Part shown: positions 5,491 through 17,961 of the stretch, piece by piece | Layout: each line of letters opens with the position of its first letter | Numbering within the stretch: the stretch's first letter is position 1 | Source of the DNA: Methanobrevibacter sp. | GTDB lineage: Archaea; Methanobacteriota; Methanobacteria; Methanobacteriales; Methanobacteriaceae | Direction: 5' to 3' | NCBI RefSeq assembly: GCF_017468685.1 | Contig: NZ_JAFUHT010000009.1 | Location: 1 to 55,578 of the forward strand | DNA length: 55,578 nt | Translations under genes and position numbers: made by a program | Notes under the pieces: model-generated | What the model saw: the letters and a program-made list of their open reading frames with translations, nothing else | Told to the model about the DNA's origin: nothing | The model's database searches: none

Positions 5491-7905
5491 TCAGAAATTA
5501 GCAATCGTATTTTTCAGACTGTATTTTTGAAGTTCTTTTTCATTAATATTGTCATTCAATGCTTCTCTGTAAACATCAATGATTTTATAATAATCATCTT
5601 CTTTATATCTTCCATCTATTGAAAAATTACAGTAACCGATGTCTTTTAAGTGATTAACTTTTTTAAGTAGCGAAAGTTCGCTGTCATTAAATATAATCAG
5701 TTCCTCATTGGAAATGCTTTTATGAATCGGATATTTGTTATTGTTTCTATCAATCAGGTAATTATCATATTTTTTAACTTCATTTCCATATAATAAATCA
5801 TATCTTGTTTTCATAAGCTCAACAGAACCATGAACCATCATCTCAAGTTTTTCAGGACTTTTGCAATATCTTATAATGTCCTCATAGTCACTATGGTTAA
5901 GCTCAACTGATAATGTTAATATCTTATAGTTTTTAAGGCTGCCTATTGCATAATTGTTTGTGAGATTCATGGAATAGGAACAATACTCAGCATTAAAACT
6001 ATTGCTCATAATAGGTAAGGAATAGTGCATCTTATTCAGTATTCCTCGAACCTTATTGAATGCCCTGATTAGCTTGTCATGGGTAATGTCTGGCCATTTC
6101 CAAATCAGCTCATAATCCTTGCCGTAGGATATTTCCAAAGCTTCCTTAAGGAAATTCACCATATAACTTATATTGTAATTTTCCTCTCTAAGAATTAGGG
6201 AGTCATCAGGATGAGGAATTTCCAGATAAACCCTTTTAACATTATCCAAATTTCTCAAATGGTTTAAATTAGTAGTATAAAATGAAAAGTTAACCTCATG
6301 ATTTTCAATTTCAGTTTCAACCCTATTTAAACTGATTTTTTTTCTTTTACGCTGATAGGATTTAATCACTTCTGATTCAAGTTTTTCAAATAAATTCCTT
6401 CGAAGTTCATTAAGTTTGCTTATGGGAATAAACAGTGATCCGTCATAATTGACATTTATTTGTGTGATTTCAAATGGGTAATTGTCAACCTTTGAAAGCT
6501 GCTTTCTGACAGTGTCTGTACTAACACTTTTCTTTAAAGGCTTTTCAAAAGTAGTGTTTCCCTTAACTTCTGCTTCAATGACTTTTCTATTTGCGAGAGT
6601 CAATCGGGATTTTAAAACAGGGTACTTGTTTTTCAATGAAAATGTGAGGATCAATTTTGATTTTACATAACTTGAGCCGTTGCTTTCAATTTCCTTAACT
6701 TTCTTGGATAACCTGTTTCTCTTTGTCAGGTATACATCAGATTCATTTAAGTTAAAATCACTTTTCTTGTTTTGTCGAACCCTTTTTACAATTAACACTT
6801 TATTTTTACGGGTTAAATCTTTAACCTGCTTGAATTTATCCTTGTTGAAATGATTTAAAGTGGTGACTATTGGATTTTGAGATATTTCCAATCCGTAATC
6901 GTTATTGTTTTTGACAATAAGCAAACCATCTCCCTTTTCAGGAATACTTGTTATATAGTCATGTAATCTTATTGCGATTTGATTTTTGCTGCTTTTAATG
7001 ACTCTCCCTATCTTCAAACCTGTATGTCCTGGACGAATGCTTCTTTTGGATGTGTTCATGAACTGGCCTTCACTGAATCCTCTATTGAAAACAAGACTGA
7101 TTTCTTCACTACTGCTTGTTTTTCCGCTTTTCAGTTTGTTCAATGCTTTTCTGTAATTGCTTATGACAATGGCAAGGTATTCCTTGCTGCGCATTCTACC
7201 TTCAATCTTGATGCAGTGTATTTCTGATTCGCTAATTTCCTTTAGCTGATTAAACAGGCTCAAGTCACATGGTGATAAATAGTAATCATGCTTTTTGATT
7301 CCATCGATTCGGTATTTCTGTCGACAAGGTTGAGCACAGGTTCCTCTGTTGCCGCTTCGACCTCCCTTAAAACTGCTCATTAAACATTGTCCTGAGTATG
7401 AATAGCATAATGCTCCATGAGCAAATACTTCAAGTTCCATATTTGTTTTAATATTTTGAATTTCTTCTTTTCTCATCTCACGTGGAAGAACAACACGTTT
7501 AACTCCTTTGCTTTCAAAATAATCTAGTTTCAATTGATTTTCAATTGTCATTTGTGTTGAAGCATGAATCTTCAAATCAGGCAAGTATTCATTAATCAGT
7601 TCTATCAGTCCTAAATCCTGAACCAAAACGGCATCAACACCAATCGCATGTAGGTGGGTTAAATAATTCAGGACATTGTCCAATTCTCTTTCTTTAATTA
7701 TGGTATTCACAGTCACGTAAACCTTAACATTATGCATGTGTGCAGTGTTTACTGCTTCACGGATTTCATCTAATGTGAAGTTCTCTGCAAACTTGCGAGC
7801 ACCATAATTTTTCCCGGACAAATAAACGGAACTTGCACCTGCATTAATTGCAATCTTCAAATGTTCCACAGATCCGACAGGAGCAAGCAATTCAGGAATT
7901 CTCAT
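5491..7905 (-). CDS. Peptidase U32-family protein (RlhA/TrhP-like), second of tandem pair
   Basis: This is a U32-family protein, related to RlhA and TrhP (RNA hydroxylation) and UbiU/V. The N-terminal TIM-barrel-like part has ELLAPVGSVEHL, NAGASSVYLSGKNYGAR, VHASTQMT and EVFAHGALCYSYSGQC. The four-Cys iron-sulfur motif is visible in C-x6-C (CYSYSGQC) and GNRGTCAQPC, then KIEGRMRSKEYL and FNRGFSEGQF. A long C-terminal extension follows (about 800 aa in total). ATG 7905 is preferred over a TTG at 7920, because AGGT lies about 9 nt upstream and the protein then begins MRIPELLAP. It overlaps the upstream paralogue by 14 bp, so the two are probably translationally coupled. Confidence 0.88.
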   Translation of the reverse strand: MRIPELLAPVGSVEHLKIAINAGASSVYLSGKNYGARKFAENFTLDEIREAVNTAHMHNVKVYVTVNTIIKERELDNVLNYLTHLHAIGVDAVLVQDLGLIELINEYLPDLKIHASTQMTIENQLKLDYFESKGVKRVVLPREMRKEEIQNIKTNMELEVFAHGALCYSYSGQCLMSSFKGGRSGNRGTCAQPCRQKYRIDGIKKHDYYLSPCDLSLFNQLKEISESEIHCIKIEGRMRSKEYLAIVISNYRKALNKLKSGKTSSSEEISLVFNRGFSEGQFMNTSKRSIRPGHTGLKIGRVIKSSKNQIAIRLHDYITSIPEKGDGLLIVKNNNDYGLEISQNPIVTTLNHFNKDKFKQVKDLTRKNKVLIVKRVRQNKKSDFNLNESDVYLTKRNRLSKKVKEIESNGSSYVKSKLILTFSLKNKYPVLKSRLTLANRKVIEAEVKGNTTFEKPLKKSVSTDTVRKQLSKVDNYPFEITQINVNYDGSLFIPISKLNELRRNLFEKLESEVIKSYQRKRKKISLNRVETEIENHEVNFSFYTTNLNHLRNLDNVKRVYLEIPHPDDSLILREENYNISYMVNFLKEALEISYGKDYELIWKWPDITHDKLIRAFNKVRGILNKMHYSLPIMSNSFNAEYCSYSMNLTNNYAIGSLKNYKILTLSVELNHSDYEDIIRYCKSPEKLEMMVHGSVELMKTRYDLLYGNEVKKYDNYLIDRNNNKYPIHKSISNEELIIFNDSELSLLKKVNHLKDIGYCNFSIDGRYKEDDYYKIIDVYREALNDNINEKELQKYSLKNTIANF

Positions 7906-10423
7906 GTAATCTACCTTCAATATAATTGCCCTTATTAATGTAAGACTGTGAAAAATCCATAATCTGGTATTTATACTTGGTTAGTTCATCCTGATTTTTT
8001 CCATTAAGACTTTCATTATATATGGATAAAATCTGGGAGGTGTACTGTTCATTTGAGTATCTGCAGTCCAGAATCAATGAATCCAATCCCAATTCCTTAA
8101 TTTCATTCATCTCTTCAATCAGACATAAGCAGTCCTTATTGATGATGTGGCTCTGTCTGTTATAGTCAAAGAAAATTTTATATTTGAATTTTTTCCTTTT
8201 TTTATCCTCAAGGATAGCATAATCAGCATCATTTGAAATTATGAAATCCTTGCCATCATTCAGATTGGTGAAATCATCCTTACTTACAATAACTTCCAGG
8301 TTTCCATTAACAATCATTTCCAAATCAATATTCCTGTCATGATTCTTATGCACCAGTTCCTGTATTTCATCTCCTGATAACTCAGAGGATAATATCAGTG
8401 ATTTGAATCCTGATTCATTTAAACTGCGCACGCAAAAGCTGTTCCAAACATTTAAATTGTGATTGCCGTAAATAGGACAGTCAAAGATTTCACTCATGCC
8501 CGGAAAATCGCCCATGACAGAAATGATGATTCCCTCATTTTCAAGTTCCTTGACAATCTCATTGCATTTGAGAGCATCTTCCTGTGAAATAAATGATGAT
8601 AATACCCAAACGAACTCGGTTGGAGATGCCATTAAACTACCCTGCTTTAAGGTTTCCTTAATGTTTGTGAAATAATCCTCAGGATTATTATAATGGCAGT
8701 TGCCGTCAAAGTAAATGCGTTTCAAATCAAAACCTGAAGCGGCTCTAATCTGTGAAATGTCATCAATGAAAATTGACAGTTTAGGGGATTTCCTTTTAGG
8801 TTTATCTTTAATGTTATCATAATCATCAAAGAATTTGCTTAAATCCTTTCTAACTTTTTTAACAGACTTCTTGGTAGGAGTGTAATGATTAAGCAATAAA
8901 TCAGTAGCATTATCCAAAATTTCACGTCTGATTTGATTGATTTCGCGGATAGGTATGAATATGTCCTTTGGCATATTGTTAAACCTAATATTATTGATAT
9001 AAAATGGTGTTTGACCAGTTTTTTCAAGCTGTTTTGTAATTATTTCTTCAGTTACTGGTTTGTTTTTTGCTTTTTCAAACTTGCCTAAGCATTTATGACG
9101 GAAATTAATCAATTCATCATCAATGTGGAATTCAACCTTTGTAAATAGATTTAAATCCTCATCCCAGGTTAGGGATAAATTGATTCCCACATTATTTCTG
9201 ATGGTTTCCTTTTCAAACTGCTTTAAGTATTCATGTGTTGATTTTGAATAACTGATGAAAACTTCGGTTCCGACTTTAACAAGACGTGTAGTGTCAATGA
9301 CAATTTCATTTTCATCCTGTTTTATGATGTTTTCAAGATAAATTCCTTTAATCTTGCCGTTGTACTTGAAAGCGATTCCATCTCCAGGCTCTAAAATGAC
9401 TGGGATTTCATGGTTTTTAACTTCTATTGTAACTTTGGTCCCATCAATATCTACAATATCTCCGATATATAGTCCTTCATGGCCTGAGTGGCCTCTGCCC
9501 ATAACATCTCCGGGCTTGTCGCCCATCATGTATCCGTCAGTGAACTGGCGATTGAAAACAAGGTGTAAATCTTTTTTGTAATCTCCGGGATTTCCATCAA
9601 TAATGTTTCTGTAACTGTTGACGATTGTTCCTATATAATCTCCGGATTTCATCCTGCCTTCCAGCTTTAATGATTTGACTCCGGCATCGGAAATTTCATT
9701 TAAATGATTATAGGTAGCAAGATCATGAGTGGATAGGAGGTAACCGTTTCCAATATTATATCCTCTGTATTTTAAACGGTATTCTCGTCTGCATGGTTGA
9801 GCACAAGCTCCACGGTTTCCGCTACGACCACTATTGTATGAGGACATGTAGCATTTTCCGCTGACACAATAGCATAATGCACCATGGCCGAACACTTCAA
9901 TGTCCATATTGATATTGTCCTCTTTTAATCTCTGAGTAGTCTCCTGGATTTGCGGGATAGTCACTTCTCTTGGAAGAACAACACGTTTAATATTGTTTTT
10001 GCCAGCCCATTTAATTGAAGCATAATTGTTTAATCCCATCTGTGTTGAAGCATGAACTTCCAAATCTGGAATGAATGTTTTCAAAAGCCATATTAATCCG
10101 AAATCCTGAACAATAACTGCATCCACTCCAATTTGGTATAATTTAAATAGATATTGCAGAACATCAACAATTTCAAAATTATTAATTAATGTATTAACTG
10201 TTACATGGACTTTTGCCCCATTTAAATGAGCATAATTGACTGCTTTTTTGATTTCTTCTATGGTAAAGTTTTTAGCATATGCTCTAGCTCCATAATTTTG
10301 CCCAGCTATATAAACTGCATTAGCACCGGCATTTACTGCGATTACTAATACATCATAAGAACCTGCAGGAGCCAATAATTCCTCTAAAACCATTTTATTT
10401 TTACACCTTGATTGTTTATTCAT
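7892..10423 (-). CDS. Peptidase U32-family protein (RlhA/TrhP-like), first of tandem pair
   Basis: This 843-aa paralogue of the next gene has the same order of parts: ELLAPAGSYDVL, NAGANAVYIAGQNYGAR, VHASTQMGLNN, EVFGHGALCYCVSGKC, GNRGACAQPCR, KLEGRMKSGDYIG and FNRQFTDGYMMG. The conserved cysteines are consistent with the 4Fe-4S cluster known in RlhA/TrhP/UbiU relatives, so an RNA-modifying hydroxylase-type role is likelier than proteolysis. The start is ATG 10423; a second Met at residue 11 (MVLEELLAP) is also possible. The two genes overlap and were probably produced by tandem duplication. Confidence 0.87.
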   Translation of the reverse strand: MNKQSRCKNKMVLEELLAPAGSYDVLVIAVNAGANAVYIAGQNYGARAYAKNFTIEEIKKAVNYAHLNGAKVHVTVNTLINNFEIVDVLQYLFKLYQIGVDAVIVQDFGLIWLLKTFIPDLEVHASTQMGLNNYASIKWAGKNNIKRVVLPREVTIPQIQETTQRLKEDNINMDIEVFGHGALCYCVSGKCYMSSYNSGRSGNRGACAQPCRREYRLKYRGYNIGNGYLLSTHDLATYNHLNEISDAGVKSLKLEGRMKSGDYIGTIVNSYRNIIDGNPGDYKKDLHLVFNRQFTDGYMMGDKPGDVMGRGHSGHEGLYIGDIVDIDGTKVTIEVKNHEIPVILEPGDGIAFKYNGKIKGIYLENIIKQDENEIVIDTTRLVKVGTEVFISYSKSTHEYLKQFEKETIRNNVGINLSLTWDEDLNLFTKVEFHIDDELINFRHKCLGKFEKAKNKPVTEEIITKQLEKTGQTPFYINNIRFNNMPKDIFIPIREINQIRREILDNATDLLLNHYTPTKKSVKKVRKDLSKFFDDYDNIKDKPKRKSPKLSIFIDDISQIRAASGFDLKRIYFDGNCHYNNPEDYFTNIKETLKQGSLMASPTEFVWVLSSFISQEDALKCNEIVKELENEGIIISVMGDFPGMSEIFDCPIYGNHNLNVWNSFCVRSLNESGFKSLILSSELSGDEIQELVHKNHDRNIDLEMIVNGNLEVIVSKDDFTNLNDGKDFIISNDADYAILEDKKRKKFKYKIFFDYNRQSHIINKDCLCLIEEMNEIKELGLDSLILDCRYSNEQYTSQILSIYNESLNGKNQDELTKYKYQIMDFSQSYINKGNYIEGRLHENS

Positions 10424-10518
10424 AATTAACTTTGTTTAATTTGGTATTTAAAAATACTCTAAAACCGTAACATTTATATACTAGAATTATCTACCTTATT
10501 ACTACCAGACTAATTTTT

Positions 10519-10532
10519 ATAACAATAGTTAT
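10519..10532. promoter_or_regulatory. Palindromic operator 1 of nitrogenase-like operon
   Basis: ATAACAATAGTTAT is the exact reverse complement of the two sites at 17128 and 17194. It lies about 40 bp after a TATA-like TTTATATA (10473-10480) and before the Cys/Met-rich leader ORF. It is likely a repressor site. Confidence 0.6.
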
Positions 10533-10570
10533 AAAAAAGTTTACAAAATGATATGGAAGGTGTAAAAATT

Positions 10571-10639
10571 ATGTGTAGATGTATAATAATGGTTCATAAA
10601 TGTTGTCACATGTGTATGCCTTTAGTCATGCGTATGTAA
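10571..10639 (+). CDS. Cys/Met-rich leader peptide (22 codons)
   Basis: A 22-codon ORF reads ATG TGT AGA TGT ... CGT ATG TAA. It encodes five Cys (positions 2, 4, 11, 12, 15) and six Met (1, 7, 14, 16, 20, 22), so half its residues contain sulfur. A GGAAGGTG ribosome site at 10555-10562 matches the one before the nifD-like gene at 10850-10857. A hairpin (10608-10637) overlaps its last codons and a T-run follows. Its placement between the first operator and the operon suggests a leader peptide whose translation reports Cys/Met supply. A tiny metal-binding peptide is the alternative. Confidence 0.55.
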   Translation: MCRCIIMVHKCCHMCMPLVMRM

Positions 10640-10648
10640 AATTTTTTT
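10608..10648 (+). promoter_or_regulatory. Attenuator-like hairpin and T-run in the leader
   Basis: ACATGTGTATG (10608-10618) pairs with CATGCGTATGT (10627-10637), giving 11 bp of which three are G-U, around an 8-nt loop. Four As and then seven Ts (10642-10648) follow. The stem overlaps the leader codons after the adjacent Cys11-Cys12. The T-run runs into TTTATAAAT, so it might instead be the TATA box of a second promoter. Confidence 0.4.
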
Positions 10649-10657
10649 ATAAATGCA

Positions 10658-10671
10658 ATTACTATTGTTGA
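10658..10671. promoter_or_regulatory. Degenerate operator half-matching the palindrome
   Basis: ATTACTATTGTTGA matches ATAACTATTGTTAT at 11 of 14 positions and retains the core ACTATTGTT. It lies just downstream of the TTTATAAAT at 10646-10654, where a second transcription start would be expected. It is weaker than the other sites. Confidence 0.35.
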
Positions 10672-10787
10672 ATATTTAATCTTTAAAAATATTTTCCATT
10701 TTAATGTCTGTCTTATTTTTTTGGAATATACTGATTTTTAATGGGATTTATTCAATTGAACTTTTATGAGGAGTTTGATTATTATTT

Positions 10788-10839
10788 TAACAATTGTTAG
10801 AGAGTAGTATGTTTGATTATGAAATATAACAATTGTTAT
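10788..10839. promoter_or_regulatory. Two operators upstream of the nifD-like gene
   Basis: TAACAATTGTTA (10788-10799) and ATAACAATTGTTAT (10826-10839, extending as a 20-bp palindrome over 10823-10842) lie 26 bp apart. They are just ahead of the ribosome site GGAAGGTG (10850-10857) of the nitrogenase-like operon. They belong to the same motif class as 10519, 17128 and 17194. Confidence 0.6.
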
Positions 10840-10862
10840 ATTTATTATAGGAAGGTGTAAAT

Positions 10863-12428
10863 ATGGTTAATGGACATGGTGGACATCATGGAAATGGATC
10901 ATGTAGAAAAAATAAAATTAAAAGAATACTTGATTTAGATAAGGATACTTGTCCTAACAGGGAACAACGTGCCAATGGTACAAATGTTTACTATGGGAAA
11001 GCATCTGAACTATTACAAGATGCAAAAGAAGGAAAAATTACAATTCCTGATAGAAAATTCCAGCAATCTGGTGGATGTGTTTTGAATTTCTATCTATCAA
11101 ACAGAGTAACAACTATTCGTGATTCTGTTACAATATTTAATGCTCCTGTGGGATGTTCTGCAGGATCATTAGGATATCGTGAATTGTATAGAGGAATTCC
11201 AGAATCATTGGGTAGAACTAATGAGTATAACAATGCTTGGTTGACAACAAATCTCCAACAGGATGATGTTGTTTATGGAGCCTCTGAAAAATTAAGGGAT
11301 GCTATATTAAAAGCTGAAGAACGTTATAACCCTCAGGCAATATTTATATTGACATCCTGTACAACAGGTATAATTGGTGAAGATATTGAAGGAACAGTTG
11401 ATGAAGTTCAACCAGAAGTAAATGCAAAAATTGTTCCTATTCATTGTGAAGGGATAAGGAGCAGACTTGTGCAAACTGGTTATGATGCATTTTGGCATGC
11501 TGTTTTAAAATATTTGGTTAAAGAACCTGAGAAAAAACAAGAAGATCTTGTGAATGTTGCGAGCATGTTGTCATACACTTGGCAGGACAGGCTTGAAATA
11601 AAAAGATTGCTTGGAAAATTAGGCTTGAGAGTAAATTTCATTCCTGAATTTGCAACTGTTTCTGATTTTGAGCAATTATCTGAGGCAGCTGTAACTGCTC
11701 CGATTTGTCCTACATACACAGATTATCTTTCAAGAGGATTGGAGCAAAAATACGGGGTTCCATATTTCCTTTATCCTTCTCCAACTGGAATTTCAAGTAC
11801 TGATGAATGGTTAAGAAACATTGCAAAATACACTGGCAAAGAGGATGAAGTTGAAAAATTAATAGAGGAAGAACACAAGATTTGGAAACCTAAACTTAAA
11901 GCAATTCAGGATGAATTTGTAAGTTTGAGGAAAAATGGCGAAAAGCCAACAGTTTTAGGTTCTCTTGGTCAGGGAAGATTAGTGTCACAAATGCCGTACT
12001 TTGATGAGTTAGGTTTAGCAACTCCTGCAGCAATGGCACAGGACTTTGATGATTTATTAATTGAAGAACTTGAAGATATCATTGAAAAAAGTGGAGATTT
12101 CCAATTGATGGTTAATACATTCCAAGCTGCCGAACAAGCTAATGTAACAACTAATTTGGATCCTGATTTGACATTAACATGTCCATTCCAAGGGGGAACT
12201 TGGGAAAGAGACAATAATGTAACTAGAATTCACTCATTAAGGGGAGATCCTGAACCTACTAGTGCTCAATCAGGTTATGCTGGAGCAATAGCATTTGGTA
12301 ACTTCTTGTTACATGCATTTAAAAATAAATCTTATCATAAGACTTTGGCTGAAAAAACTGAAAAAAGTTATAAAGACTGGTGGTATGAACAGGATAATCC
12401 TTTATACTACTTAAATGAAGGTAAATAA
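10863..12428 (+). CDS. Nitrogenase-like component 1, D-type (alpha) subunit
   Basis: This is a 521-aa homologue of NifD. The three P-cluster-type cysteines are Cys72 (SGGC), Cys98 (APVGCSAG) and Cys166 (LTSCTTGIIGEDI). Cys282 in APICPTYTDYLSRGLEQKYG aligns with the FeMo-cofactor Cys ligand of NifD. His457 (RIHSLRGDPEP) lies in the region of the cofactor His. An additional Cys440 sits in TLTCPFQGGTW, and the N-terminus is Gly/His-rich. It is first in a D-K-H operon and is preceded by GGAAGGTG 5 nt from the ATG. A separate K subunit and the cofactor Cys argue against CfbD of F430 synthesis. True NifD lacks this context, with no nifE, nifN or nifB nearby. A MarD-type (methylthio-alkane reductase) role is the favoured inference, supported by sulfur neighbours and shared operators. 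Confidence 0.88.
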   Translation: MVNGHGGHHGNGSCRKNKIKRILDLDKDTCPNREQRANGTNVYYGKASELLQDAKEGKITIPDRKFQQSGGCVLNFYLSNRVTTIRDSVTIFNAPVGCSAGSLGYRELYRGIPESLGRTNEYNNAWLTTNLQQDDVVYGASEKLRDAILKAEERYNPQAIFILTSCTTGIIGEDIEGTVDEVQPEVNAKIVPIHCEGIRSRLVQTGYDAFWHAVLKYLVKEPEKKQEDLVNVASMLSYTWQDRLEIKRLLGKLGLRVNFIPEFATVSDFEQLSEAAVTAPICPTYTDYLSRGLEQKYGVPYFLYPSPTGISSTDEWLRNIAKYTGKEDEVEKLIEEEHKIWKPKLKAIQDEFVSLRKNGEKPTVLGSLGQGRLVSQMPYFDELGLATPAAMAQDFDDLLIEELEDIIEKSGDFQLMVNTFQAAEQANVTTNLDPDLTLTCPFQGGTWERDNNVTRIHSLRGDPEPTSAQSGYAGAIAFGNFLLHAFKNKSYHKTLAEKTEKSYKDWWYEQDNPLYYLNEGK

Positions 12429-12473: not shown

Positions 12474-13844
12474 TTGTCTAGTGAAAACACATTAGAAAAT
12501 AAATCCGGAATTGATACTAATGTATCATATTTTGAAAGAGAAGCGGTTGAAGCACCGAGATACAGTTGTGCTCTTGCAGGTGTATATGGGACAACTCTGG
12601 GAATAAGAGGCGGTATTCCAATCCTTCATTCAGGTGCAGGATGTGGGGTAGGTCAGCTATTCGGAACATTATATGCTGGCGGAGAATCTGCAGGAGGAAA
12701 TGAAGGGGGAACAAGTACTCCTTGTTCCTGTCTTGTAGAAGAACATGTGATTTTAGGAGGTGAAGAAAAACTTAGAAACTTAATTGAATCAACTATTGAA
12801 ATAGCTAACGATGAATTATTTGTTGTAACTTCAGGTTGTGTTCCATCATTAATTGGTGATGATGTTGATCAAGTTGTTGATGAATTTAGAGATAAAGCGG
12901 CAGTAATTCATGTTAATGCACCAGGATTTAAAGCAAATTCTCCAGAAGGATATAATCTGTTCTGGGACGCAATTATCGATCAATTATTGCCTGATGAAGC
13001 AGGAGATGTTGAGGAAAAAACTGTTAATATTTTCGGAATTGTTCCATACAATCATGTTTACTGGAAAGGAGATTTATTAACTATCAAAAATTTATTAGGG
13101 TCAATTGGTATTAAAGCTAACATAATCTTTTCAGAAAAAAATGGTTTAGATCATATTAATCAAATACCTCAAGCTGAATACAATATTGTGGTAAATCCTT
13201 GGTTAGGTGTTAGGGCTGTAGAAAAGTTAGAAGAAAAATATGGCACTCCATTTATTAAATTCCCAAATGTTCCAGTAGGTGCAAAACAAACTGCAGAATT
13301 CTTGAGAACAGTTGGTGAAAAAATTGGAGTTCCTGAGCAAACAGTAGAAAATTTCATTTCTCAAAAAGAAGATTGGTATTATAGATTATTAGAATATCCT
13401 GGCGATGCAATCATTTTGGTACGTCCAAATTCATTTTATGCTGTTGCTGCTGAAAGTAGTTATGCAATCGCATTTACAAAATTTTTGGCTAATGAACTTG
13501 GTTATTTGCCGGATATAATTCAGATAACTGATAATCCTCCGATTGAAGTTAGGGAAGAAATTATATCAGAAATTAGAAATAATCTTGACACTGTTGTTCA
13601 ACCGGACATAATATTTGAAGCAGATACTTACAAGATTAGAAAAAATCTGGAAGATAGGCCATTCTTATTCCTATTTTCAAGTTCAATTGAAGCACCGACT
13701 TCCATTGAAGATTATAATGCTTTGCATATTCCAATTTCATATCCAATTTACAATAGGGCAGTGCTAGCTAAACATTACGGTGGATATGAAGGTGGTTTAA
13801 CAGTAGTTGAAGATGTAGTAAGCGGATTTGTAGGTCCATTATAA
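12474..13844 (+). CDS. Nitrogenase-like component 1, K-type (beta) subunit
   Basis: This is a 456-aa homologue of NifK/NifN, expected to form a heterotetramer with the upstream D-type subunit. P-cluster-type cysteines are Cys32 ([10 protein letters not shown]), Cys57 ([10 protein letters not shown]) and Cys122 ([13 protein letters not shown]). An unusual Cys84-x-Cys86 pair (STPCSC) follows a Gly-rich stretch. The start is a TTG at 12474 with a strong GGGGGTGAT at 12462-12470. It begins 45 bp after the D gene stops, in the same operon. It carries no cofactor ligand of its own, as expected for a K subunit. The function follows the D subunit; MarK-like is the favoured inference. Confidence 0.87.
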
Positions 13845-13866: not shown

Positions 13867-14739
13867 ATGACAAAGCAAATTGCAATTTATGGAAAAGGTG
13901 GTATTGGAAAATCCACCACAACATCAAATCTATCAGCAGCACTATCAGATTTGGGGTATAGTGTAATGCAGATTGGTTGTGATCCTAAAAATGATTCCAC
14001 AACAACCTTAAGAAAAGGAAAATCAATTCCAACTGTTTTAGATACTGTTAGAAAAAGATCCAGTGATTTGGATAATCTTGTTCATGAAGGATATAATGGT
14101 ATTTATTGTGTTGAAGCTGGAGGTCCTGAACCAGGAGTAGGGTGTGCTGGAAGAGGGATTATTGCAGCTATTGAATTATTAAATACAAATGGAATCATTG
14201 ATGAATACAATCCTGATATAATCATTTATGATGTGTTAGGGGATGTTGTATGTGGTGGTTTTGCAATGCCTATTCGTAAAGGAATTGCTGATCAGGTTTA
14301 TACTGTGACCTCCTCTGATTATATGGCCATTTATGCCGTGAACAACTTGTTTAAAGGAATTCTAAAATATTCTAATAATGGTGGCGCACTACTCGGAGGT
14401 GTTATAGGTAATTCAATTAAATCTCCTCTTCAAGAAGATATGATTAGAGATTTCACTAAAGAAACTAACAGTGATGTAATCAAATTTGTTCCAAGGTCTC
14501 CTACGGTTACTCGTTGTGAGTTAGATGGTGTAACAACAATTGAAGGAGCACCTGATTCTGCTCAAGCAGAGGTCTATAGGGACCTTGCAAGAAGAATAAT
14601 TGATAATAAAAATAAATTTTTACCAACTCCATTTGATAATGATGATTTGTCAGAATGGGCATCTGGTTGGATAAATCAGTTATTGTTGAATCAGAAAATC
14701 GAAATTGATAATGTACATGAAGGAAGTTCGGGGATTTAA
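13867..14739 (+). CDS. Nitrogenase-like reductase (NifH-family iron protein)
   Basis: This 290-aa ATP-dependent 4Fe-4S reductase would feed electrons to the D-K protein. The P-loop is GKGGIGKST (9-17), with the GCDPKNDST switch region. The two cluster-bridging cysteines are Cys93 ([12 protein letters not shown]) and Cys129 ([14 protein letters not shown]). The length and motifs match NifH, BchL, CfbC and MarH alike, so sequence motifs alone do not name it. Partnership with separate D and K genes and the sulfur-linked operators favour a MarH-like protein. GGAGGT lies 5 nt upstream of the ATG. Last gene of the operon. Confidence 0.9.
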
Positions 14740-15873: not shown

Positions 15874-17079
15874 TTATATTTTACTAAATAATCCTGTTTT
15901 TTCTAATGCTTGGCGTAAATCTTCTATTATATCTTCCACATCTTCTATTCCAACAGAAAATCTGAAAAATCCATTATGGAACTCTTTAGGGTATAAATAT
16001 TGTCTTTCATCATCTTCTCCTATGAATACAATTAAACTTTCATCATGGCCTAATGAAACAGCTGAAGTTATGATTTTTAAATGGCTCACAAATTCATTGT
16101 GTTTGTCATGATTGGCTTTCAATCCAAATGCAATCATTCCACCATATCCATTAAACATTTGTTTTTTGGCTATTTCATGTCCTTTGTTTGATTCAAGTCC
16201 TGGATATGATACAAAACTTATATTTTCCTGTGATTCTAACCATTCCGCTACTGCTTGTGCATTTTCATTATGGGCTTTCATTCTTAAAGGTAGTGTTACA
16301 GAGCCTCTCATAATCAGCCATGCATTAAAAGGACTAATTGTTGCTCCTAAATTAACTTGTGACTGTTCTCTGATTGGTGTTAACAGTTCTTTGTCATTGG
16401 CTATTATTGCTCCACCCATTGAGTCTCCATGTCCGTTAATGTATTTGGTTAAACTTTCGATTACATAATCTGCTCCTAACTCAAGAGGGCGTTGGTTAAA
16501 TGGAGATGCAAAGGTGTTGTCTACTGAAAGAAGTGCACCATGTTCATGGGCTATTTTTGCAATTTCTTCAATGTCAGATATTCCAATTGTAGGATTTCCC
16601 GGAGTTTCTATATGGATTAATTTTGTTTTGTTGGTTACTGCTTTTTTTATTTCTTCAATATCGGTTGTATCAACAATTGTGGTCTTTACTTTAAATTTTT
16701 CATTAAATAATTCATTTAATAGTCTATAAGCTGCAATGTAAGTTACATTGGAGAATACAACATGGTCTCCACTTTCCAATAATGAAAAGAATAATCCTGA
16801 AAGAGCTCCCACTCCACTTGCAAGAACTATAGCATCTTCACCATTTTCCAAATTTGCTATTTTCTCTTCCAGATATTTTTGATTTGATCCTCCATTTCTG
16901 GTATATAGTATGCTATCTGCACTACTCCAGTTGATGTTTGTCGGGTCATAGGGTAATTCATAACTGTTTCCCATGGTTATTGGACGTTTAATTGCATTTG
17001 TTTCTTTGTCTACATCATTTCCACTGTGCACAGCACGTGTTTGAAATCCAAGTTCTTTTCCATATTTTCTTTTTTTCAT
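15874..17079 (-). CDS. Cys/Met-metabolism PLP enzyme, O-acetylhomoserine sulfhydrylase or gamma-lyase type
   Basis: This 401-aa enzyme belongs to the Cys/Met-metabolism PLP family. The PLP lysine is Lys212 in ESLTKYINGHGDSMGG, with Asp187 (SVDNTFASPF) for the pyridine nitrogen and ETPGNPT before it. YTRNGGSNQKYLEEKIANLENGEDAIVLASGVGA is the N-terminal tetramer-interface region (only part quoted: SNQKYLEEK). The family includes O-acetylhomoserine sulfhydrylase, cystathionine gamma-synthase/lyase and methionine gamma-lyase, and motifs alone do not separate them. A sulfhydrylase taking H2S or methanethiol would pair logically with a methanethiol-releasing nitrogenase-like enzyme. Two palindromic operators lie upstream. 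AGGT sits before ATG 17079. Confidence 0.85.
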   Translation of the reverse strand: MKKRKYGKELGFQTRAVHSGNDVDKETNAIKRPITMGNSYELPYDPTNINWSSADSILYTRNGGSNQKYLEEKIANLENGEDAIVLASGVGALSGLFFSLLESGDHVVFSNVTYIAAYRLLNELFNEKFKVKTTIVDTTDIEEIKKAVTNKTKLIHIETPGNPTIGISDIEEIAKIAHEHGALLSVDNTFASPFNQRPLELGADYVIESLTKYINGHGDSMGGAIIANDKELLTPIREQSQVNLGATISPFNAWLIMRGSVTLPLRMKAHNENAQAVAEWLESQENISFVSYPGLESNKGHEIAKKQMFNGYGGMIAFGLKANHDKHNEFVSHLKIITSAVSLGHDESLIVFIGEDDERQYLYPKEFHNGFFRFSVGIEDVEDIIEDLRQALEKTGLFSKI

Positions 17080-17127
17080 GATTTTTACCTAAAGTTTAAT
17101 TATGAATTATTTTGAAATTTACAATAT

Positions 17128-17141
17128 ATAACTATTGTTAT
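17128..17141. promoter_or_regulatory. Palindromic operator near the PLP-enzyme promoter
   Basis: ATAACTATTGTTAT is a near-palindrome, with an outer matching T/A pair at 17127/17142. It overlaps the TATA-like stretch (TATATATTGTAAAT on the minus strand) expected for the PLP-enzyme gene, which fits repression by blocking TBP. Confidence 0.6.
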
Positions 17142-17193
17142 ATTTTCAAAATGTTTATATAATATGTGGAAGAATATCTAATTTGATGAAAAA

Positions 17194-17252: not shown

Positions 17253-17961
17253 ATGAAAATGGTAAAAATAGTAAATACAAAAGACTTGTTAGAAAAAGAC
17301 TAACAAAACATTCAAATAATCGATGTTAGATATGAAGAAGCATTTTTGGAAAAATTGAAAACTCAATAAACATCCCTCATTCAGAGCTAACGTACAATTT
17401 AGAACAACTTGATAATGCAAAAGAGATTATTGTGTATTATAAGACTGGTGAGAGAAGTGATGATACTACAGAAGAGCTAATCTCTTGGGGTTATGAGGCA
17501 TTTAGTCTTGAAGGTGGTTTTAATCAATATTGGGAATATGTCAAAAATTTAATGGCTGTTGAGCTTGATGTCAAAGGCCAGTTGTGTCCGGGTCCAATAA
17601 TTCAAATTGCAGACATTTGAATATTTTGAGAAAGCCTGAAAAAGTAAGTGTCAAAATACTCTAATTGAAAAAACATTTGGATTCATGATGCCTAGGGGCA
17701 CTAAAAAATTAGGATTGTCAAAATGAATATGGTGGAATGGGTGCAAAAATTATTAGGTCTATAATGAATCAAAAGGTGATACTGTCTCTTGAAGAGTTAA
17801 TTGAAAGTGCAAAAAATCACGCTTTTCGCATTGTAGCCTGTCTAATGTCAATGAATATACTGGGAAGTTATCAAGAGGAATTAATTGATGGTGTTGAACT
17901 GGGTGGTGTTGCTACATTCATTGGTTCTTGGGAGAAAAGTGATATGAGTTTATTTATTTAG
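17253..17961 (+). pseudogene. Decayed rhodanese-TusA-DsrE2 fusion (sulfur transfer)
   Basis: Three sulfur-transfer domains can be read in order but only by changing frame. A rhodanese-like part begins at ATG 17253 (MKMVKIVNTKDLLEKD), with an in-frame TAA at 17301. It resumes as IQIIDVRYEEAFLE and, after a frameshift near 17363, as KIENSINIPHSEL and IIVYYKTGERSDD; the usual active-site Cys position reads Tyr-Lys. A TusA part follows (VELDVKGQLCPGPIIQIADI), broken near 17619. After a large deletion come MPRGTKKLGLSKMNM and the DsrE2 end (LEELIESAKNH, ELIDGVELGGVATFIGSWEKS). At least four disruptions make function unlikely. It sits divergent from the PLP enzyme with shared operators. Confidence 0.82.

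Follow-up and report, generated by a model that had tools for sequence, protein, structure and literature searches.

A conserved cysteine- and methionine-rich leader ORF with a probable sulfur-regulon operator upstream of a nitrogenase-like operon in Methanobrevibacter

A short open reading frame (ORF) rich in cysteine and methionine codons lies upstream of, and in the same orientation as, the nitrogenase-like operon nflDKH of Methanobrevibacter sp., and this ORF, a palindromic operator in front of it and a U-tract behind it are all present and conserved in the sequences of related species. We tentatively favor, at somewhat less than an even chance, the explanation that these elements form a sulfur-regulon leader acting in cis, in which operator control would be combined with translation of the Cys/Met-rich ORF to tune read-through from the leader promoter, P1. 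The main rival is an independent Cys/Met-rich microprotein. Throughout, the window denotes the entire stretch of 55,578 nucleotides that was analyzed.

The first-pass annotation described an ORF of 22 codons with five Cys and six Met, and this description is exact: the ORF occupies positions 10571–10639 of the forward strand (ATG at 10571, stop codon TAA at 10637–10639) and encodes MCRCIIMVHKCCHMCMPLVMRM, in which all five Cys codons are TGT. The neighboring Cys codons that it placed at positions 11 and 12 of the peptide are likewise found, as TGTTGT at 10601–10606, two being the longest Cys run in the leader. The Shine-Dalgarno (SD) sequence of the leader, GGAAGGTG at 10555–10562 (forward strand), is identical to that of nflD at 10850–10857, so that the two ribosome sites, previously called alike, are in fact the same. 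An ORF listing opens the leader at an in-frame ATG at 10553 (28 amino acids), but the position of the SD and the relatives, two of which have no in-frame extension, point to 10571 as the start. Chance does not explain the Cys/Met richness of the leader: a Cys+Met share of at least 45% was reached by 0 of 67,898 random ORFs (from 6 Mb generated under a second-order Markov model of the window), the leader has the highest Cys/Met content among the 436 short ATG ORFs of the window, and background use in eight neighboring genes is 1.2% for Cys and 1.7% for Met. By sequence and conservation, then, the leader has the ribosome site and the ORF rich in candidate regulated amino acids that are expected of an attenuator, with translation predicted. 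The leader peptide had no match in NCBIfam, Rfam models gave no match to positions 10300–11000 at E-values up to 1 (no riboswitch, T-box or other RNA family), and viral contigs gave no match.

The case made in the first-pass annotation depended on conservation of the ORF in related genomes, and alignment across Methanobrevibacter shows it conserved in frame in five species. Among the 67 genomes of the genus, all of which were covered by the comparison of the nif-like D gene, the same D gene (94–95% identical) is present only in G019, G023 and G060 besides the genome of the window, and all three carry the leader with a nif-like DKH operon downstream. The fifth leader species is G014, where no such D gene or nfl operon was found. 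A peptide profile search retrieved exactly these five species at E-values below 1e-6; across the order, it found nothing convincing outside the genus, the partial matches near E = 0.02 belonging to another family. The peptides of the relatives are MCRSKIMNQKCCHMCMPLYMCM (G023), MCRCKPMEQKYYHMCMPLFMCM (G060), MCRCNCMMSQMCCRMCMPLVMCM (G019) and MCGCMMSNSCNRIYMPLFMAI (G014). Only two indels separate the leaders, both of three bases and in frame, and the start codon, SD and stop codon are kept.

The Cys+Met share is 45–65% in the four operon-bearing species and 38% in G014. Individual positions are less stable: the number of Cys drifts from 7 to 3 across the leaders and their positions shift, Cys4 is Ser in G023, and Cys11-Cys12, kept in the window, G023 and G019, is Tyr-Tyr in G060 and Cys-Asn in G014. 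The expectation that Cys and Met codons would be maintained thus holds for the overall content and in part for the Cys pair. In the operon-bearing species, conservation extends to 92% of alignment cells at Cys/Met positions compared to 70% at other positions (Fisher p = 0.012; cells were counted by hand from the peptide alignment and are not independent). Averaged over these four species, dN is 0.18 vs. a dS of 0.51, with few sites, so that the amino-acid constraint on the leader peptide is modest. The better conservation of Cys/Met positions, and the high Cys+Met content that is retained in the operon-bearing species although the residues change, speak for a cis-acting leader, whereas the low dN relative to dS would be expected of a microprotein that acts in trans, as would the invariance in all five leaders of two non-sulfur residues, P17 and L18, and of the motif MPLxM. 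The drift of the Cys positions argues against such a microprotein; moreover, the CCTTTA of the Pro-Leu codons doubles as the loop of a hairpin (below), so that the conservation of Pro-Leu may have its basis in the nucleic acid.

A stronger link between the leader and sulfur metabolism than the peptide provides comes from the operator. A 16-bp palindrome, TATAACAATWGTTATA, is common to the upstream regions of the leader and of nflD. Operator 1 (TATAACAATAGTTATA, 10518–10533, forward strand) lies in the predicted 5′ UTR of the leader, and nflD is preceded by operator 2a (TAACAATTGTTA, 10788–10799, forward strand), a 12-bp palindrome core, and operator 2b (TATAACAATTGTTATA, 10825–10840, forward strand). 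A site search located a further copy at 17127–17142 on the reverse strand, 47 nt before a cystathionine gamma-synthase-like gene (15874–17079, reverse strand), and the presence of one operator type at the leader, nflD and this gene within the window supports the cis reading. Exact copies of TATAACAATWGTTATA occur at 12 distinct sites in the genome of the window and are present in 56 of the 67 genus genomes, in which the reversed pattern, used as a control, occurs 0 times. Among 109 annotated site entries across the genus (one site may count twice where loci overlap), 17 are associated with cysK (NCBIfam equivalog), 20 with moaE, 6 with an SsuA-family sulfonate binding protein, 3 with FdhD, 3 with cystathionine gamma-synthase, 4 with nflD and 1 with a rhodanese-TusA-DsrE fusion; a further 23 are associated with a 111-amino-acid protein and/or RNase III, a few have adhesin-like or other genes as neighbors, and 25 have no assignment. 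Sulfur-assimilation genes thus have TATAACAATWGTTATA in common above chance. The palindrome core also occurs upstream of nflD in 25 of 29 nfl loci of the family (with up to 1.5 kb available upstream); in many genera it lies about 1.1–1.5 kb before nflD, which corresponds to the start of the first gene in an H-D-K operon, the order being read from sequence. Judged by gene context, that is, by its position before cysK, cystathionine gamma-synthase, other sulfur genes and nfl operons, TATAACAATWGTTATA probably marks a sulfur (or sulfur and molybdopterin) regulon that includes the leader, and the sites place this regulon genus-wide and apparently family-wide. A literature search for the palindrome and its regulon found no relevant description.

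Two side observations were made. In about 20 genomes (L120, L127, L143 and others), the gene of the 111-amino-acid protein, which has no Pfam match, and that of RNase III diverge from a common promoter that bears the operator. Positions 17432–17961 of the window (forward strand) hold broken pieces resembling a rhodanese-TusA-DsrE sulfurtransferase gene, and the genome has an intact paralogue at another locus (L153:1654–2673), with a MetE-like gene nearby.

The operon itself, identified by family matches and for nflD also by structure matches, comprises nflD (10863–12428), a nitrogenase-like alpha subunit, an nflK-like beta subunit gene (12474–13844) and an nflH-like iron protein gene (13867–14739), all on the forward strand. 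The best solved relative of nflD in the PDB is the methylthio-alkane reductase subunit MarD (9fmg; E = 2.3e-67 vs. 2.3e-29 for the next nitrogenase chain), and this kinship, together with the operator, fits a putative sulfur-assimilating role. While MarD is thus the closest solved relative, the operon differs from the nitrogenase-like systems methylthio-alkane reductase (Mar) and isethionate reductase (Isr) in that its order is D-K-H and no radical-SAM B gene is directly adjacent (marBHDK in Mar); no B gene was found beside D, K and H in the window. In nfl loci of other genera (L074, L075, L077, L078, L094 and L095), a tiny ORF starting MKDGIM (ATGAARGATGGAATAATG) lies upstream of D, often with an SD-like site; its place seems to be either immediately ahead of H or in the interval separating H from D, and what is conserved is either the hexapeptide or a nucleotide motif.

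Upstream of operator 1, a predicted TATA box (TTTATATA, 10473–10480, forward strand) defines P1, with a transcription start predicted at about 10500–10505 and a predicted leader 5′ UTR of about 70 nt. The predicted start coincides with a TACCAGACTA block (10503–10512, forward strand) that is near-identical in the five leader species and in three species of a second genus (g9; G101, G103 and G104). A TATA-like box precedes the operator in all of these, and P1 with its TACCAGACTA block and the operator are nearly invariant in the five leader species. A second conserved block, TCAATTGAACTTTTATGAGGAGTTTGATTA (10752–10781, forward strand), aligned among the operon-bearing species and partly in G014, is a candidate promoter, P2, of nflD itself. 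In g9, P1 and the operator lie 360–550 nt before nflD and the leader ORF is absent. Since g9 is nested within the leader-bearing clade of the D tree, as sister of the window (support 98/96), the simplest view is that g9 has lost the ORF, and the persistence of P1 after this loss suggests a role for P1 in expression of the operon, with the ORF as an added level of control on P1. The idea that P1 is merely the promoter of a small gene is weakened by the same observation.

The absence of the ORF in g9 bears on the view that the leader is a passenger, that is, a decaying or nearly neutral translated ORF in the process of being lost, where what matters is the promoter and operator. Such decay would also accommodate the drifting Cys positions and the reduced leader of G014; however, the Cys/Met richness, frame, SD and start are kept in five species, and G019 carries extra copies of both residues (7 Cys, 8 Met), and we consider a passenger ORF improbable.

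Three further observations concern promoter regions. Shortly after the P1 operator of g9 (L071, L072 and L073), where the Cys/Met ORF would be, lies a conserved AT-rich stem, GCCCCUAAAAAUU...AAKUUUAGGGC. Two adhesin-like genes on contig C34 of the window's own genome (L153:2860–2960 and 5713–5800) have a leader-like promoter style, TATATACTAGAA followed after about 25 nt by CCAGRCTACTTTTA, with a copy of the same operator at or just upstream of the TATA box. Adhesin promoters of this genome also contain the sequence CCAGACTA.

The first-pass annotation also reported an 11-bp stem following the Cys pair and then seven Ts, and both are in place: a terminator-like hairpin at 10608–10637 (forward strand; arms 10608–10618 and 10627–10637, with three G-U and three G-C among its 11 pairs), which extends over the end of the ORF and the first base of the stop codon, and a T7 tract at 10642–10648 (forward strand). 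A terminator scan of positions 10400–10900 returned this single site vs. 0.0 expected in shuffled sequences. The folding of the whole region is nevertheless ordinary (z = −0.71), and its minimum free energy structure is a different one, in which the SD pairs with the CCUUU of the ORF; in the window sequence, this pairing and the terminator stem are mutually exclusive. These features recall the amino-acid attenuators of the trp, his and leu type, in which a leader ORF rich in the amino acids of the pathway and then a terminator precede a metabolic operon. A bacterial-type mechanism would here let the position of the ribosome at Cys11-Cys12 choose between the SD/CCUUU pairing and the terminator stem, and the terminator scan does return the site in G023 as well as in the window. 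It does not in G060, G019 and G014; the hairpin can form in each of the four operon-bearing species, and its pairing is disrupted in G014. The suggestion that the stem would be kept by compensatory change finds no support among the leader relatives: all changes in it are one-sided (e.g., G-C to G-U), with no pair altered on both sides. The alternative, SD-sequestering fold fares no better, with 78% of cells paired across the relatives, 58% in the SD helix, and 0 compensatory changes. When the same peptides were encoded by random synonymous codons, 14–42% of the sequences folded at least as well in the four operon-bearing species; the hairpin does not exceed this null because the H-M-C-M...M-C-M repeat nearly dictates a self-pairing RNA. 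The mutually exclusive terminator and antiterminator hairpins with covariation that mark such attenuators are thus not seen, the Cys pair at which the ribosome would have to stall is lost in G060, and we regard a bacterial-type attenuator as very unlikely.

What is conserved at the end of the leader is the U-tract. Archaeal terminators have a run of four to seven U at their 3′ ends and do not strictly need a hairpin (PMC8716108), and a tract that fits this definition by sequence follows the leader stop codon in all five species (T7 in the window and T6, T4, T6 and T6 in the relatives), so that an archaeal-type terminator is predicted in each.

Whether the peptide itself is the product of interest turns partly on G014, whose leader stays open and has a promoter although the nfl operon was not found. 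This orphan leader (L067:10150–11300) lies beside a divergent SNF/NSS transporter gene, and just upstream is the 3′ end of a DUF1848 gene, present as a duplicate; the site looks, from its sequence, like a rearranged locus from which the nfl operon was lost. A tie between the leader and the transporter was considered and rejected: the 60–69% identical transporter homologues examined have no upstream operator and the profile finds no further leader, so that, given also the DUF1848 remnant, their proximity in G014 is probably an accident of rearrangement. Retention of the ORF and promoter without the operon would nonetheless suit an independent 22-amino-acid microprotein that acts in trans, for example by binding thiols, metals or Fe-S clusters under sulfur shortage, and merely neighbors nflDKH. 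The leader indeed has its own promoter, operator, SD, stop codon and U-tract (promoter and terminator by sequence), nflD being separately equipped with operators of its own, and thus has what is expected of a standalone small-protein gene. Methanosarcina mazei, for one, produces a standalone small protein in which four Cys are conserved (PMC11456600). Against this stand the linkage of the leader to nflDKH in four of the five species, the retention of the promoter and not the ORF in g9, and the lack of any convincing relative of the peptide beyond the genus; we judge the microprotein unlikely, if the most serious competitor.

The cis-acting sulfur-regulon leader, which we prefer, would work as follows. 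P1 with its palindromic operator would produce a short RNA that carries the translated Cys/Met ORF and ends at the U-tract. Under sulfur shortage, a repressor would leave P1 and the nflD-proximal operators, and the speed at which the ORF is translated, set by the supply of Cys-tRNA and Met-tRNA, would determine the share of P1 transcription that passes the U-tract at 10642–10648 into nflDKH. Slow decoding of codons 11–16 would hold the ribosome over the 5′ portion of the terminator region, and read-through would be favored. The use of P1 for nflD, the repression, the control of read-through, and the sensing of codons and its direction are all steps that we infer, and sensing of Cys and Met through leader translation is plausible. 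Several observations weigh against this scheme: with operators of its own close to nflD, the operon need not rely on read-through from the leader, and nflD has a candidate promoter besides; g9 does without the ORF, and G014 has the leader without the operon; the stem lacks covariation, and neither Cys11-Cys12 nor Cys4 is fixed. The evidence base is the sequences of five species. The proposal of the first-pass annotation that the leader senses sulfur amino acids on behalf of the operon is therefore right in its direction toward sulfur, for which the common operator, alongside the conserved ORF, is better evidence than the peptide alone, whereas its attenuation by hairpin is not supported, the stem showing no covariation.

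Compared to the trp, his and leu attenuators, the leader has in common the amino-acid-biased ORF, the terminator after it and the metabolic operon downstream; it differs in having no conserved antiterminator/terminator pair and no fixed regulatory codons, and in its archaeal U-tract/aCPSF1 termination. Short polycysteine ORFs of mycobacteria, which are leaderless, are described as cysteine-responsive attenuators (Canestrari et al. 2020, doi 10.1111/mmi.14498, as cited in PMC9094748). As far as that account goes, the present leader resembles them in its shortness, its richness in Cys and its place ahead of an operon. They are, however, bacterial and leaderless with runs of Cys, whereas this leader is archaeal, has an SD (10555–10562) and a predicted 5′ UTR of about 70 nt in place of a leaderless start, has Cys runs of at most two, and, as read from its sequence, has as many Met as Cys. 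A literature search of partial coverage turned up no archaeal case of ribosome-mediated attenuation.

In its fullest form, the proposal would be that of an archaeal amino-acid attenuator, in which the speed of the ribosome on Cys/Met codons would control U-tract termination before a nitrogenase-like sulfur-scavenging operon, on top of a repressor-operator switch; we consider this form doubtful. Should the ORF gate nflDKH, we would know of no earlier case of an archaeon that uses a leader peptide to gauge its amino-acid supply, and the gate would have to operate through U-tract/aCPSF1 termination in place of bacterial hairpins. Regardless of gating, the operator connects sulfur assimilation with an uncharacterized nitrogenase-like operon found in gut methanogens, and defines a candidate regulon to be tested that comprises cysK, cystathionine gamma-synthase, sulfonate transport, moaE, fdhD and nflDKH.
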